From: a gamma proteobacterium endosymbiont of Lamellibrachia anaximandri
GTDB taxonomy: Bacteria > Pseudomonadota > Gammaproteobacteria > Chromatiales > Chromatiaceae
DNA length: 64,000 nucleotides
Direction: 5' to 3'
Assembly (NCBI GenBank): GCA_016756855.1
Contig: JAESPD010000012.1
Span: 1-64,000, forward strand
The notes beneath the pieces are model-generated. The model was not told where the DNA came from, ran no database searches, and saw only the letters and a list, made by a program, of their open reading frames with translations. Shown here piece after piece: positions 1 to 53,634 of this stretch. Within the stretch, counting starts at the first letter, position 1. The number at the start of each line of letters is the position of its first letter. The position numbers were made by a program, and so were the translations under genes.

Positions 1-95
1 TGCGTTTGCTTGATGGGAGCGGTATGAGCGGAGACGTTCACGTACCGTTCTGCGAGAGGCTGAGGGTGAGAGTCCCTTGGTCTACTCTCCTCCCA
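1..95 (+). mobile_element. 3' end of a group II intron (domains V and VI)
   Basis: Positions 17-50 form a textbook 34-nt group II intron domain V. The lower stem pairs 17-24 with 43-50 (8 bp, one G-U). A two-base CG bulge lies at 41-42. The upper stem pairs 25-30 with 35-40 and is closed by the GNRA tetraloop GAGA at 31-34. The catalytic AGC triad is at 18-20. Positions 51 to about 90 give a domain VI-like hairpin ending in GGTCTACTCTCC, the kind of tail seen on bacterial group II introns. The exact 3' splice boundary cannot be fixed without the exon junction. The reverse transcriptase ORF, if present, lies upstream of the window. Confidence 0.85.
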
Positions 96-2090: not shown

Positions 2091-2359
2091 CTTGTGCTCC
2101 TTCAGCGTGATAATTACGGATTCAGCGCTCCCGTGGTGTTTCGCAGCAAGGCGCAGCGTGCAGGGAATGGCTATTCCTTTCCAAGCGCTGCAACACGGCT
2201 GCGGTACACCACGGGAACGCCCTCCGGGTGAGATTGTCTGCGTCCATGGATTGCGTTGTGCCTCTTGACAAGGGAGTGGCCATTGCCTGCGAGGCGCGCC
2301 TTGCCATGAACGCAGACAAGCTCACTGAGCCCGCAATTATCACATTGAAGGAACACTAG
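2091..2359. repeat. 269-bp inverted-repeat element able to form a three-way junction (MITE-like)
   Basis: The arms 2091-2125 and 2325-2359 are inverted copies, identical at 28 of 35 positions. Between them sit two further long hairpins. Hairpin 1 spans 2130-2215, with stems CCCGTGGTG/CACCACGGG, CGCAGC/GCTGCG, GCAGCG/CGCTGC and an apical GGAAT/ATTCC. Hairpin 2 spans 2234-2319, with a perfect 10-bp stem TTGTCTGCGT/ACGCAGACAA, then CATGG/CCATG and GCCTC/GAGGC. As single strand the whole folds into a Y or cloverleaf shape. There is no coding capacity. The right arm contains the AAGGA ribosome-binding site (2348-2352) of the glycosyltransferase gene. It may be a non-autonomous mobile element, a structured leader, or both. 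Confidence 0.7.
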
Positions 2360-2360
2360 A

Positions 2361-3479
2361 ATGACAATAAAAATTTCTCTCGTGGCGCACAATGCCTATG
2401 GCGCTATATCAGGCGGGAGCGCCGGGCATGTGGGTGGCGTTGAGCGTCAGACCAGCATGATGGCTTTCTGGTTGCAGAAGAAGGGCTTCGACGTCTCGAT
2501 CATTACTTGGGATGAGGGTCAGGAGCAGGACTTTGTCATTGATGGTGTAAGGCTCATCAAGCTGTGCCGGAAGGACGAGGGTCTTCCCGGGCTGCGTTTT
2601 TTTCATCCGCGTTGGAGCAGTCTCAATGCTGCACTCAAGCGTGCTGATGCCGATGTCTACTATCAAAATGGCGCCGAGTATGTAACCGGTCAGGTTGCCT
2701 TGTGGTGTAAGCGCAACCATAAGAAATTCATCTTCTCCTCCGCCAGCGACGCTGATTGTCAGCGAAATCTGCCCTGTCTGGACTCCTTCAGAGAGAAGTA
2801 CCTCTACAGAAAAGGGTTGGAGTTGGCGGATCATTTGATTGTACAGACTGAAAAACAAGGTGTGGCCTTGCTGGATGCTTTTGGCATGACGTCAACCGTA
2901 TTGCCTATGCCCTGTCCCGACTTGTTGCCGGAGGAGCAGTCGGCGCCCAAGGATTTTCATGAACGCAAAGGTGTGATCTGGGTTGGCCGGATAAGTGAGG
3001 AGAAACGCCTGGAGTTCTTGCTTGAGATGGCGGCTAAAACTCCAGAAATCACCTACGATGTTCTGGGAAAACCCAACAGAGACTCCGAGTATGCGCGTAG
3101 CGTACTTGATGCAGCGGAGCAGGCGGAGAACGTCAATATTCGCGGTATGGTCGAACGGGACAGGATTCGGGATTTCTACGCGAATGCCAGAATTTTATGT
3201 TGTACCTCCTCATTTGAAGGTTTTCCCAATACCTTTATTGAAGCCTGGAGCGAGGGGCTGCCTATCGTCACAACCTTCGACCCTGACGACCTCGTGCAAC
3301 GGAAACAGTTGGGTTTTTCCGGTTCGGAGATCTCATATCTCGCCGAGAAAGTAGGTCATCTGCATAGCACTGAGGATGAGTGGACGCGGATGTCCCGGAA
3401 CGCCCGGCAGTATTTCGTGGAAAATCACGAACTGGATGCTGCGATGGAAAAATTTTCCAGTCTCTTCAGGGGCGTTTGA
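2361..3479 (+). CDS. Family 4 glycosyltransferase (GT-B fold)
   Basis: A 372-residue cytoplasmic or peripheral glycosyltransferase probably transfers a sugar from a nucleotide donor during exopolysaccharide assembly. The N-terminal half opens with a GT-B acceptor-domain pattern including GGxxxHVGGVERQ near residues 18-31. The C-terminal half contains VIWVGRISEEKRLE, typical of GT4 donor domains, and the EGFPNTFIEAWSEGLPIV donor-site motif at about 286-303, which carries the conserved E-x7-E pair. The start is supported by AAGGA eight bases upstream, which lies inside the preceding inverted-repeat arm. Sugar specificity cannot be read from the sequence. The nearest functional neighbour is the chain-length protein. 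Confidence 0.88.
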   Translation: MTIKISLVAHNAYGAISGGSAGHVGGVERQTSMMAFWLQKKGFDVSIITWDEGQEQDFVIDGVRLIKLCRKDEGLPGLRFFHPRWSSLNAALKRADADVYYQNGAEYVTGQVALWCKRNHKKFIFSSASDADCQRNLPCLDSFREKYLYRKGLELADHLIVQTEKQGVALLDAFGMTSTVLPMPCPDLLPEEQSAPKDFHERKGVIWVGRISEEKRLEFLLEMAAKTPEITYDVLGKPNRDSEYARSVLDAAEQAENVNIRGMVERDRIRDFYANARILCCTSSFEGFPNTFIEAWSEGLPIVTTFDPDDLVQRKQLGFSGSEISYLAEKVGHLHSTEDEWTRMSRNARQYFVENHELDAAMEKFSSLFRGV

Positions 3480-7618: not shown

Positions 7619-7650
7619 TGCCCGATCCGCTGAGCTTGATCGGGCCTACA
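7619..7650 (-). repeat. REP-like palindrome, single unit
   Basis: A perfect 8-bp stem GCCCGATC/GATCGGGC (7620-7627 and 7638-7645) encloses the 10-base loop CGCTGAGCTT and ends in CTAC. It belongs to the palindrome family also found at 13144, 18727, 27100, 32163, 40402, 49107 and 53475. It lies ten bases after the ribD stop. Confidence 0.85.
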
Positions 7651-7675
7651 GTTTGAGCAAGATAGCGAAATCAAT

Positions 7676-8425: not shown

Positions 8426-9541
8426 ATGTCCCTTAACACTACAGAAGAAATCATTGCCGACCTGAAGCAGGGGAAGATGGTTGTCATCATGGATGATGAG
8501 GATCGTGAGAACGAGGGCGATCTCATTATGGCTGCCGAGATTGTGACCCCGGAAGCGGTCAATTTTATGGCCCGTTACGGCCGTGGCCTGATCTGCCTTA
8601 CGCTCACCAAAGAGCGCTGCAGCCAGTTACGCTTGCCCCTGATGGTGCCCACTGATGATGAGCTGGCGGCGACCAATTTCACGGTCTCTATCGAGGCCGC
8701 CGAAGGGGTGACCACCGGCATCTCAGCCGCTGATCGGGCCACCACCATTTTGGCTGCAGTGGCAGAGGACGCACAACCTCAGGATATCGAGCAGCCGGGA
8801 CACATCTTTCCGCTGATGGCGCAGCCTGGTGGTGTGCTGGTGCGCGCCGGTCATACCGAAGCGGGGTGTGATCTGGCCCGTATGGCGGGCTTCCGCGCCG
8901 CTTCCGTCATCGTGGAGATTCTCAACGATGACGGAACCATGGCGCGCCGGTCGGACCTTGAGAAGTTTGCACATGAGCACGATCTGAAAATTGGCACCAT
9001 CGCCGATCTGATCCAGTATCGGGTGAAAAATGAGCATACGGTGGAGCGGGTCAGTGAATGTGCATTTCCCACCAAACATGGGAATTTCCGCTTGGTTGCC
9101 TATCAGGACATGGTGGATAACGAGTTGCATCTGGCGCTGGTGATGGGGCATCCGAAGCCAGATAAGCCGACACTGGTTCGTGTTCACATGCAGAACAGTT
9201 TGTGTGATTTGTTCAGTTCAACCGGTGGTGATTGTGGTTGGCCACTTGAAAATGCCATGAAACAGGTGGGTAAAGCGGGGCAAGGCGTAATCGTGGTGCT
9301 ACGCAATCACGATACCGCCCGAGAGATCGTGCAGCGCATGATGGAACTGCAGTTGCAGAGGCCGGAAGGCGAGTCGTTCGTTAAACAGGACAACAGTAAG
9401 GAGCTGCGCACCTACGGTGTCGGCGCGCAGATCCTCTCTGATCTGGGTGTGCGCAAGATGCGCGTGCTCAGTGCGCCGAAGAGTATCCACGGCCTCTCCG
9501 GCTTCGGCATGGAAGTGGTTGAATACGTCGATTGTGAATAA
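8426..9541 (+). CDS. ribB: 3,4-dihydroxy-2-butanone 4-phosphate synthase with degenerate GTP cyclohydrolase II-like domain (RibBX type)
   Basis: The N-terminal half (about residues 1-200) is a complete RibB domain, with [16 protein letters not shown] and [14 protein letters not shown], and makes the four-carbon unit for lumazine from ribulose 5-phosphate. The C-terminal half resembles GTP cyclohydrolase II, but two of the three zinc cysteines are absent. In the [14 protein letters not shown] segment and what follows, the expected positions read Asn257 and Gly268, and only Cys270 remains. The C-terminal domain is therefore unlikely to hydrolyse GTP; this arrangement is known as RibBX in gammaproteobacteria. 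An active ribA must lie elsewhere. The gene is in the rib cluster, followed after 62 bases by ribH. Confidence 0.93.
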
Positions 9542-18726: not shown

Positions 18727-18758
18727 GTGCCTGATCCGCTGTGCTTGATCAGGCCTAC
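18727..18758 (-). repeat. REP-like palindrome, single unit
   Basis: A perfect 8-bp stem GCCTGATC/GATCAGGC (18729-18736, 18747-18754) with loop CGCTGTGCTT. Compared with the copy at 7619, both arms changed together (C to T with G to A), which keeps the stem paired. It lies between the convergent SCO and ppx genes. Confidence 0.85.
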
Positions 18759-18773
18759 TGATCCTGTTCCGGA

Positions 18774-27099: not shown

Positions 27100-27178
27100 G
27101 TAGGCCCGATCAAGCACAGCGGATCGGGCAACATCGAGTGCCGAAGCAGGAGTAGTTACCGGTTCCGCTGCGCCGAAG
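27100..27178 (+). repeat. REPIN-like palindrome pair (second unit degraded)
   Basis: Unit 1 is a perfect 8-bp stem GCCCGATC/GATCGGGC (27104-27111, 27122-27129) with loop AAGCACAGCG. About 54 bases later, unit 2 retains only its left arm and loop (ACCGGTTCCGCTGCGC, 27158 onward), the right arm being lost at the edge of the pseudopilin-like gene. Confidence 0.75.
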
Positions 27179-32100: not shown

Positions 32101-32168
32101 TGACGCTGCTCTTTGTCCCGGTTCTGTACGCAGTTTTCTTCCGGGTGCCTTATTCCAAGGATGCCTGA
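29118..32168 (+). CDS. RND efflux permease (AcrB/MexF-like)
   Basis: The 1016-residue proton-driven inner-membrane pump has the RND plan: one helix, a large periplasmic loop, six helices, a second loop and six helices. The helix-4 relay motif reads GMLVDNAIVVAEG with Asp402 followed by Asn, where AcrB has two aspartates. The helix-10 segment LIKNAIVLIDEID retains a lysine. Substrate range is not deducible. It forms an operon with the upstream adaptor gene. The stop codon is unusual in lying inside a REP-like palindrome (32163-32188). Confidence 0.95.
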   Translation: MNIGEYSIEKKVVSWLLVIIMVAGGFYGFEKMGKLEDPNFTIKQAKIITFYPGATAQEVQDEVTYHIEEALQLMGQLKRIRMSIARPGMSDLNVEFKDEYKAKDFPDIYDELRRKIADMKHKLPPGVQGPIIIDDFGDVYGIYLALQGEGYTYRDLKDVADDLKKQLVLVDGVKKIVIGGEQPEVVYVEISRTRMGELGISLEQIGNVLQSQNVVEDAGKVRVGPDYIRIHPTGEFDSVQAIGDLLISSENRKLIYLKDIASIHRAYEEVPGKLIYFNGKPALTMGISMRGGENVVAVGETLVQRFHELQSIIPVGMDLNIIYDQPTEVNNSVNGFIVSVGQAIGIVIAVLLLFMGLTSGLIIGAVLLITVAGTLLVMELYGIELQRISLGALVIALGMLVDNAIVVAEGMLVRIQSGMPATQAAKEAVGKTIWALLGGTIIGILAFSAIGLSSDNTGEFASSLFYVILISLTLSWVTAISTTPLLCALFMRPKKGGDGAADNPYDKGFFKLFRTLLKAVIKARWLAVIVVISLFVSAVLGFGYIKNAFFPSANTPMFFVDVWEPEGTDIRETRDDALKIAEFLRSQAGVVKTTTLVGGGDARFALTYEPKEASPAYAQIIVQTEELEQISRVWPDVEAYMRDNFPQLDPIIKPFRIGPGRDGKIEARFHGPDAAVLRDLAEQAKAIMRQDAEAKEINDDWRQPVELIRPLFNEKVGRQLGITRHDLAIALKSAFEGKNVGVYRDGIRMLPIKLRPPVDERADVANIQDIQVWSPALQKAVPVAQVVSGFETVFENTVIRGRNRIQTIIAACNPTGELATPLFNRLRTKIEAVELPPGYELSWGGEYEDSSNAQAGLSKVLPTGFIMMILVSILLFAKVRQPLIIWLTVPLAIVGITAGLLGFDGAFDFMSLLGALSLIGLLIKNAIVLIDEIDQQIDDGKEHLAAILDATVSRLRPVLMAAATTILGLIPLLSDVFFVNMSITIMAGLGFATLLTLLFVPVLYAVFFRVPYSKDA

Positions 32169-32188
32169 TCCGCTGTGCTTGATCAGGC
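32163..32188 (-). repeat. REP-like palindrome overlapping the RND permease stop codon
   Basis: The perfect 8-bp stem GCCTGATC/GATCAGGC with loop CGCTGTGCTT is identical in stem and loop to the copy at 18727. The TGA at 32166-32168 inside its left arm is the stop of the RND permease, so the last codons of the gene come from the element. Confidence 0.85.
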
Positions 32189-32237
32189 CTGCGAATCCAA
32201 CATGCCATGGGTGTTGATCGGCAGTAACAATTGCCTT

Positions 32238-40394: not shown

Positions 40395-40490
40395 AATTGG
40401 TGTAGGCAGGTTCAAGCGCAGCGGAACCGGCAACCAGGATTGTACCGCAAAAGCCTGGATGCCCGATCCGCTACGCTTGATCGGGCCTAC
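40377..40490. repeat. Composite heptamer run plus REPIN-like palindrome pair
   Basis: Two heptamer units (AGAGGCT, AAAGGCT) around the ppdK stop lead into a palindrome pair. Unit 1 (40406-40431) has stem GCAGGTTC/GAACCGGC with one mismatch and loop AAGCGCAGCG. Unit 2 (40461-40486) has stem GCCCGATC/GATCGGGC and loop CGCTACGCTT. The units are offset by 55 bases. The organisation matches 53397-53563. Confidence 0.85.
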
Positions 40491-40606
40491 CTTTAATACA
40501 GTTACGCGCCTCGTGGAATCCTTCATCACCCCGCGAATTTGATCTAAAACAGTGACAGAAAGGTCAGTCGGCCCTAAAATGCCGCGCTTACTGTGAGAGT
40601 GTCTGT

Positions 40607-49106: not shown

Positions 49107-49195
49107 GTAGGCCTGATCAAGCGTAGCGGATCGGGCATTCACGAAATATCGAAACAGATGGGGTAGCCGGTTCCACTGCGCTTGAACCGGCCTAC
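49107..49195 (+). repeat. REPIN-like palindrome pair inside the nos cluster
   Basis: Unit 1 (49111-49136) has arms GCCTGATC/GATCGGGC with one T-G wobble and loop AAGCGTAGCG. Unit 2 (49166-49191) has a perfect stem GCCGGTTC/GAACCGGC and loop CACTGCGCTT. The offset is 55 bases. It is the reverse complement arrangement of the pairs at 40402 and 53475. Confidence 0.88.
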
Positions 49196-49242
49196 TTATC
49201 GATAGGTAGCAACAACACATATTTCTGGAGGCAGGGTCTCTG

Positions 49243-53396: not shown

Positions 53397-53563
53397 AAAG
53401 GCTAAAGGTTAAAGGTTAAAGGTTAAAGGTGACTGTGCCACCGGATAGGCCTGAACCCTGTATCTTGGTGTGCCGTAGGCCGGTTCAAGCGCAGCGGAAC
53501 CGGCAACCTCAATCGTTCTGCCAAAGCCTGGATGCCCGATCCGCTACGCTTGATCTGGCCTAC
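53397..53563. repeat. Heptamer array plus REPIN-like palindrome pair after nosY
   Basis: Five tandem heptamers (AAAGGCT then AAAGGTT three times, then AAAGGTG) occupy 53397-53431. A palindrome pair follows. Unit 1 at 53479-53504 is a perfect GCCGGTTC/GAACCGGC with loop AAGCGCAGCG. Unit 2 at 53534-53559 is GCCCGATC/GATCTGGC with one mismatch and loop CGCTACGCTT, offset 55 bases. Beyond the pair, 53602-53621 (TTAGCCTTAAACCT) is an inverted match to the heptamer array. Confidence 0.88.
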
Positions 53564-53634
53564 CTACTTGACACAAAATTCAGGCAAATCTTCAATTTGC
53601 CAGCCCTTAGCCTTAAACCTATTTCTTTAAAATC

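Follow-up and report, generated by a model that had tools for sequence, protein, structure and literature searches.

A strongly structured element, probably an IS630-type MITE, and its apparent contribution of a ribosome-binding site to a glycosyltransferase gene in a tubeworm symbiont

MITEs are generally portrayed as reduced derivatives of a single IS. Several such families, as well as other palindromic repeats, can be compared with the element described here. RUP of Streptococcus pneumoniae, a MITE derived from IS630/Tc1-mariner, is likewise short, carries no transposase, ends in IS630-like terminal inverted repeats (TIRs) and uses a TA target (PMC2229807, PMC3049150); the present family differs in its size (~265 bp), its GC-richness, its pair of homologous hairpins, inverted relative to each other and conserved in their loops, the many TIR types found on one core, and its presence in many families of Proteobacteria. 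MITEPsy1 and MITEPsy2 of Pseudomonas syringae are also MITEs, and MITEPsy1 inserts at CTAG (PMC3189936), but they measure 100 and 228 nt, and their ends (GGAAGGTCTG... and GGGGGTGTAAG...) are unlike the TIRs of the present family. The P. fluorescens R-family (R0, R2, R178, and R200) consists of intergenic stem-loop repeats, of which R0 and R2 have ends in common with resident ISs (PMC2718517); the comparison covers the main-text description of these repeats, and some of them, especially R200 (320 bp), may be identical with the present family. Correia/NEMIS, ERIC, and QMITE are folded MITEs able to alter flanking expression, but they have other hosts and other ends, and neither a four-way junction nor a CAAGGC/AACGC loop is reported in their open-access descriptions. 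REP/BIME sequences with RAYT are strand-specific palindromes, but differ in that linkage to Y1_Tnp was not found here (2 of 20 loci); integron attC sites are strand-specific palindromes too, and the resemblance is one of logic only.

The window, i.e., the whole stretch of 64,000 nucleotides analysed, comes from an endosymbiont of Lamellibrachia anaximandri. The element lies between two genes of the same direction, one for a 523-aa protein resembling a chain-length determinant (436–2007, + strand; named by sequence reading) and one for a 372-aa glycosyltransferase (2361–3479, +). A match to the group II intron family of Rfam (RF00029, 57 bits) is located at 15–90 (+), 5' of the chain-length-determinant gene. 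A scan of 1950–2450 found neither a promoter nor a terminator. The element runs from G2094 to C2356 (~263 bp), with TA at 2357–2358 on its right; the left TA is TT in the window copy. The initial annotation proposed arms of 35 bases, 28 of them identical, which enclose two long hairpins in a three-way junction. Alignment of 2091–2125 with 2325–2359 confirmed the arms (28 of 35 positions complementary), and the left TIR (5' strand of stem P1, 2094–2125, +), which terminates in ATTCAG at the junction, pairs with the right TIR (3' strand of P1, 2325–2356, +). Predicted folding of the RNA from 2085 to 2370 gave −142.3 kcal/mol, far below the shuffle mean of −97.1 (z = −8.7; reached by 0 of 200 shuffles), and each long hairpin also folds in isolation (−51.9 and −40.0 kcal/mol). 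The first, hairpin H in motif orientation (2133–2212, +), combines a CAAGGC/AACAC internal loop with a GGGAATGGC apical part and contains the exact motif at 2147–2171; the second is an inverted copy (2237–2316, −), with the exact motif at 2279–2303. They match the covariance model described below at 83.2 and 76.5 bits, respectively, both being members from which it was built. The arms and the two hairpins are therefore real, but the junction requires correction: at the symmetry centre of the element, a third, 9-nt hairpin, CCC-TCC-GGG (P3, 2220–2228), whose CCC and GGG are identical in 40 of 40 aligned elements, makes the junction four-way. The proposed pairing of TCCTT (2098–2102) with AAGGA (2348–2352, +) agrees with the fold, in which the two stretches are opposed, and the distance of this apparently element-derived Shine-Dalgarno sequence from the ATG at 2361 is normal, as expected if it serves that start.

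A consensus was derived from 40 full elements, mostly of 262–272 nt, using a MAFFT alignment blind to structure. It consists of a TIR stem, a hairpin, the invariant CCC-nnn-GGG, and an inverted copy of the hairpin, the two hairpins being homologous; full copies measure ~265 nt. Compensatory change was found in 85 of 94 consensus pairs, a count that does not represent independent events because the 40 copies are related. None of 500 shuffles reached the covariation score of the hairpin, and a slide control was also clear. Both the CAAGGC/AACGC internal loops and the apical motif are unpaired and conserved across matches. In one genome (G037; L090, L094, L096, and L099), one hairpin has a divergent apical part (CCATAG..CTATGG) and keeps the CAAGGC/AACGC loop, which makes this loop the most constant feature. 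Conserved pairing in other copies, on which the structural proposal depended, is strong, and a covariance search revealed relatives in many genomes.

The ends of the element are far more varied. At 62% identity, the TIRs of the 40 elements form 15 groups, whereas 2000 random pairs were all at or below 0.58; as the ends are uncertain in some groups of one member and other such groups lie near their neighbours, the claim is limited to at least 12 types. The type of the window copy is that of 15 of the 40 aligned elements. Three elements (L158, L161, and L164) have cores that are 76–80% identical and unrelated TIRs, the core identity of another pair (L129/L153) is 0.775, and BLAST alignments of L161 with four plasmids cover the core only, not the ends. 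One folded core with many unrelated ends suggests that the core, rather than the ends, is the lasting unit.

Altogether, 48 distinct full copies of 254–279 nt were found, a length too small for a transposase gene. A covariance model of the inner hairpin, built from 28 hairpins that are matches of the window element and with this training set counted among the matches, was found in 107 of 369 Gammaproteobacteria genomes (~29%) and in 69 of 398 genomes of the phylum (E ≤ 1e-4 for both). Copy numbers per genome from this search are lower bounds. In the home genome of the window, a single full copy is accompanied by several truncated ones. Besides tubeworm symbionts, carriers include an Azotobacter chroococcum plasmid, Halomonas sp. 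PA16-9, and a P. aeruginosa plasmid; Pseudomonas-type elements used as queries found matches in Azotobacter, Halomonas, and P. aeruginosa plasmids, and a plasmid search with the window element and L045 found no match. The same is true of a phage search with two representative elements and of a viral-contig search with the exact motif. The statement that this is not a known family holds for the sources searched: Rfam (release 15) gave no relevant match to the element at either the gathering score or a relaxed E-value, and no description of the family was found in the open-access literature, searched by sequence string and by topic, where the four-way-junction core, the strand-biased hairpins, and the exchanged ends are apparently without description. 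An excess of convergent genes has been reported around stem-loop and terminator-like repeats (PMC2718517, PMC3049150); among the 34 copies flanked on either side by a called gene (simple ORF calls), the neighbours are co-directional in 20, divergent in 9, and convergent in 5, and these raw counts give no sign of such an excess.

Some related observations may be added. A variant at L236 (1171–1428), close to a Y1_Tnp gene, has 95 nt between its hairpins, compared with the usual ~24. Shortened copies in two sister symbionts (G003 and G002; L065 1504–1625 and L113–L119) carry a palindrome, GTAGGGTGCGC...GCGCACCCTAC, between their arms, as if it were nested in the MITE or substituting for its core. 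The window also contains dispersed palindromic repeats of a second type, GTAGGCCCGATCAAGC-CAGCGGATCGGGCA, occurring singly or as inverted pairs of ~90 nt (7619–7655, 18728–18764, 27100–27130, 32162–32198, 40402–40492, 49107–49197, and 53475–53565), and at 8523–8626 (−) a match to Rfam V_AS9 (Vibrio RNA AS9; 50.2 bits, threshold 50), the host being outside Vibrio.

The suggestion that the structure could be a mobile element has been borne out. Copies are present at other loci within the genus, and when the joined flanks of eleven insertions were compared with six genomes, two empty sites were joined exactly: GAAGAG-TA-GACC (G005b) and ACTC-TA-CCTCC (G000C151). The sister genomes show two exact TA duplications, independent insertions, and, at the site of the window copy, internal deletions. 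Of the 8 sites compared, 2 have a clean duplication and one carries TGA; divergence is seen in several flanks. TA is found at both ends of most full copies. At the L052 site, two relatives (L212 and L213) carry CTAGTGCACTATGG and CTAGTACACTATGG, which correspond to TA, 3 nt of each end, and TA. In ISY100 of the IS630 family, cleavage falls exactly at the 3' ends but two bases within the 5' ends, and in Tc1/mariner elements it falls 2–3 bases within the ends (PMC2170065); because their layout is that expected from such cleavage, the two sequences look like excision scars. As far as related genomes can record it, mobility is demonstrated by genome comparison, TA duplication, and these scars. One IS630 copy of a same-genus genome (L071) ends in CTAGTACTCCATCAAC, a partial match to TAGTGCTCYWTCAAC. 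IS630 copies of the genus start with CTAGTACTCCATCAAC, CTAGTGGGTCATGCG, CTAGTGTAGTGTCC, or TATTAACCCGGCAT; the first of these is similar to the TIR of the window copy, and others show an apparent likeness to TIRs of elements from other genomes. IS630 L184 shows a partial likeness to TIR types of other genomes. All these apparent resemblances span 10–16 bases. An origin of the core as a simple IS630 remnant was ruled out, since no hairpins were found inside 14 IS630 loci.

The identity of the mobiliser and the meaning of the hairpins leave room for several alternatives. A DDE_3 transposase is absent from 12 of 18 element-carrying genomes, most of which have many copies, so the mobiliser there was lost or belongs to another family. 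Together with TIRs such as TAGGGCCTGTTGACG, this lends some weight to the idea, possible but on balance unlikely, that TIR types lacking an IS630 match were moved by another DDE family targeting CTAG/YTAR (e.g., IS5-type); an IS630 transposase gene that follows one Azotobacter copy argues in the other direction. It is improbable that a dedicated enzyme acting on single-stranded DNA (RAYT/HUH- or integrase-like) recognises the hairpins as its ligands and that the ends merely look IS630-like. Strand-specific hairpins with conserved bulges do resemble the logic of attC or REP, and Y1_Tnp (RAYT/IS200) domains occur in 25 of 25 element-bearing and 15 of 23 element-free genomes, a difference uncontrolled for transposon load; however, Y1_Tnp genes lie near hairpins in the aforementioned 2 of 20 loci only, and TA duplications with scars of 2–3 nt fit a DDE transposase. 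A RAYT link was rejected, as Y1_Tnp is enriched in carriers yet not adjacent to the hairpins. The compensatory changes might instead have arisen at the DNA level, without selection on the fold. Long, near-perfect stems are a known substrate of quasi-palindrome correction by template switching; the stems of the element are of this kind, and the terminal stem P1 shows no strand bias among its non-Watson-Crick pairs (G.U 56 vs. A.C 48). In the hairpins, by contrast, read in motif orientation, G.U outnumbers A.C by 299 to 37 (~8:1), a ratio inflated by positions at which G.U is preferred as such, although 129 vs. 35 remain when the four strongest are left out. In the MAFFT alignment, the counts are 94 vs. 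19 for H(+) (P2) and 64 vs. 43 for H(−) (P4), where a single invariant position (columns 187/232) contributes 40 of the 64, and without it the ratio reverses (24 vs. 43). The conservation of the unpaired CAAGGC/AACGC loops and apical motif is likewise at odds with template switching, which may add to stem perfection and is rather unlikely to account for the changes by itself. The strand-biased wobble pairs favour the view that selection acts on just one strand of each hairpin in its folded state, either RNA or single-stranded DNA.

The same site in sister symbionts bears on the proposal that the structure is an RNA switch on exopolysaccharide synthesis, which would work by masking or freeing the Shine-Dalgarno sequence. 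Orthologues of the glycosyltransferase are 95–97% identical in the symbionts of Escarpia spicata, E. laminata, L. barhami, and L. anaximandri, which by itself makes a vestimentiferan symbiont the most likely source of the window. A full element is present at this site in G005 (L039); the L. barhami symbiont (L068) retains ~141 nt, a single deletion having fused the two hairpin loops; only a 55-nt terminal hairpin remains in the E. laminata symbiont (L069); and the element is absent from E. spicata (L066) and L. anaximandri (L067) symbionts. The empty sites of the last two are not fully identical to the joined flanks, a few bases being different, and excision, rather than a lack of insertion, may have occurred there. 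In favour of a switch, the arms are retained in every carrier, and the AAGGA, identical in L039, L068, and L069, is predicted to be paired (unpaired probability ~0) in the full transcript of all carriers, including the hairpin-deleted ones. However, two of the six symbionts lack the element, the two hairpins are gone from a third and partly lost in a fourth, and the gene is intact where the element is absent or decayed; a dedicated exopolysaccharide switch is therefore unsupported. In addition, the carriers are close kin, and the retained arms may reflect common history; copies elsewhere adjoin varied, unrelated genes, the structure not being tied to one gene or pathway, and no ligand-type conservation is linked to the glycosyltransferase. 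Such a switch thus appears highly improbable. The further suggestion of a mobile element that has turned into such a switch fares better with regard to the Shine-Dalgarno sequence, which the element provides and, by the predicted fold, buries, but not with regard to dedicated control. In the element-free L066 and L067, an in-frame GTG precedes the ATG by 9 bases and is itself preceded, at a distance of 8 bases, by AAGG; in the carriers, the old GTG frame is closed by a stop, and the right end of the element contributes AAGGAACACTAGAATG in place of the old ribosome site. Shortened copies at L025 and L052 also finish in AAGGAGCACTGATG at a start codon. From these alignments, the ribosome-binding site of the glycosyltransferase appears clearly to have been donated by the right end of the element.

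The element is real, mobile, strongly structured, and of a known general kind, the IS630-type MITE. Very probably, the window copy is a non-autonomous MITE of IS630/Tc1-mariner type that landed before the glycosyltransferase gene and supplies its ribosome-binding site. It would be moved in trans by IS630/Tc1-mariner-type transposases, the presumed mobilisers, at TA, often CTAG, targets. Insertion probably occurred in a symbiont ancestor, between the start region and the body of the gene, displacing the former start and Shine-Dalgarno sequence, for which the right end of the element became the replacement. The family could be regarded as a parasite chassis whose conserved hairpins are strand-specific, in which selection presumably acts on each hairpin as a folded single strand and ends are swapped to suit different transposases, an exchange that we infer to be an adaptation to the transposases at hand. 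More speculatively, and with considerable doubt, the paired inverted hairpins might form an orientation-independent RNA device that binds a host factor, lowers the cost of insertion in operons, and is kept across end exchanges. If this were true, either orientation of insertion would put a motif-oriented hairpin first in read-through transcripts, and the host factor would act in antitermination, stability, or ribosome contact. The strand bias of the wobble pairs makes the choice between RNA and single-stranded DNA, as well as the ligand, directly testable. A structured family found in ~29% of the sampled Gammaproteobacteria and missing from Rfam merits a name and annotation, and the window copy is, by its sequence, a clear example of a mobile element replacing the start region and ribosome-binding site of a gene.
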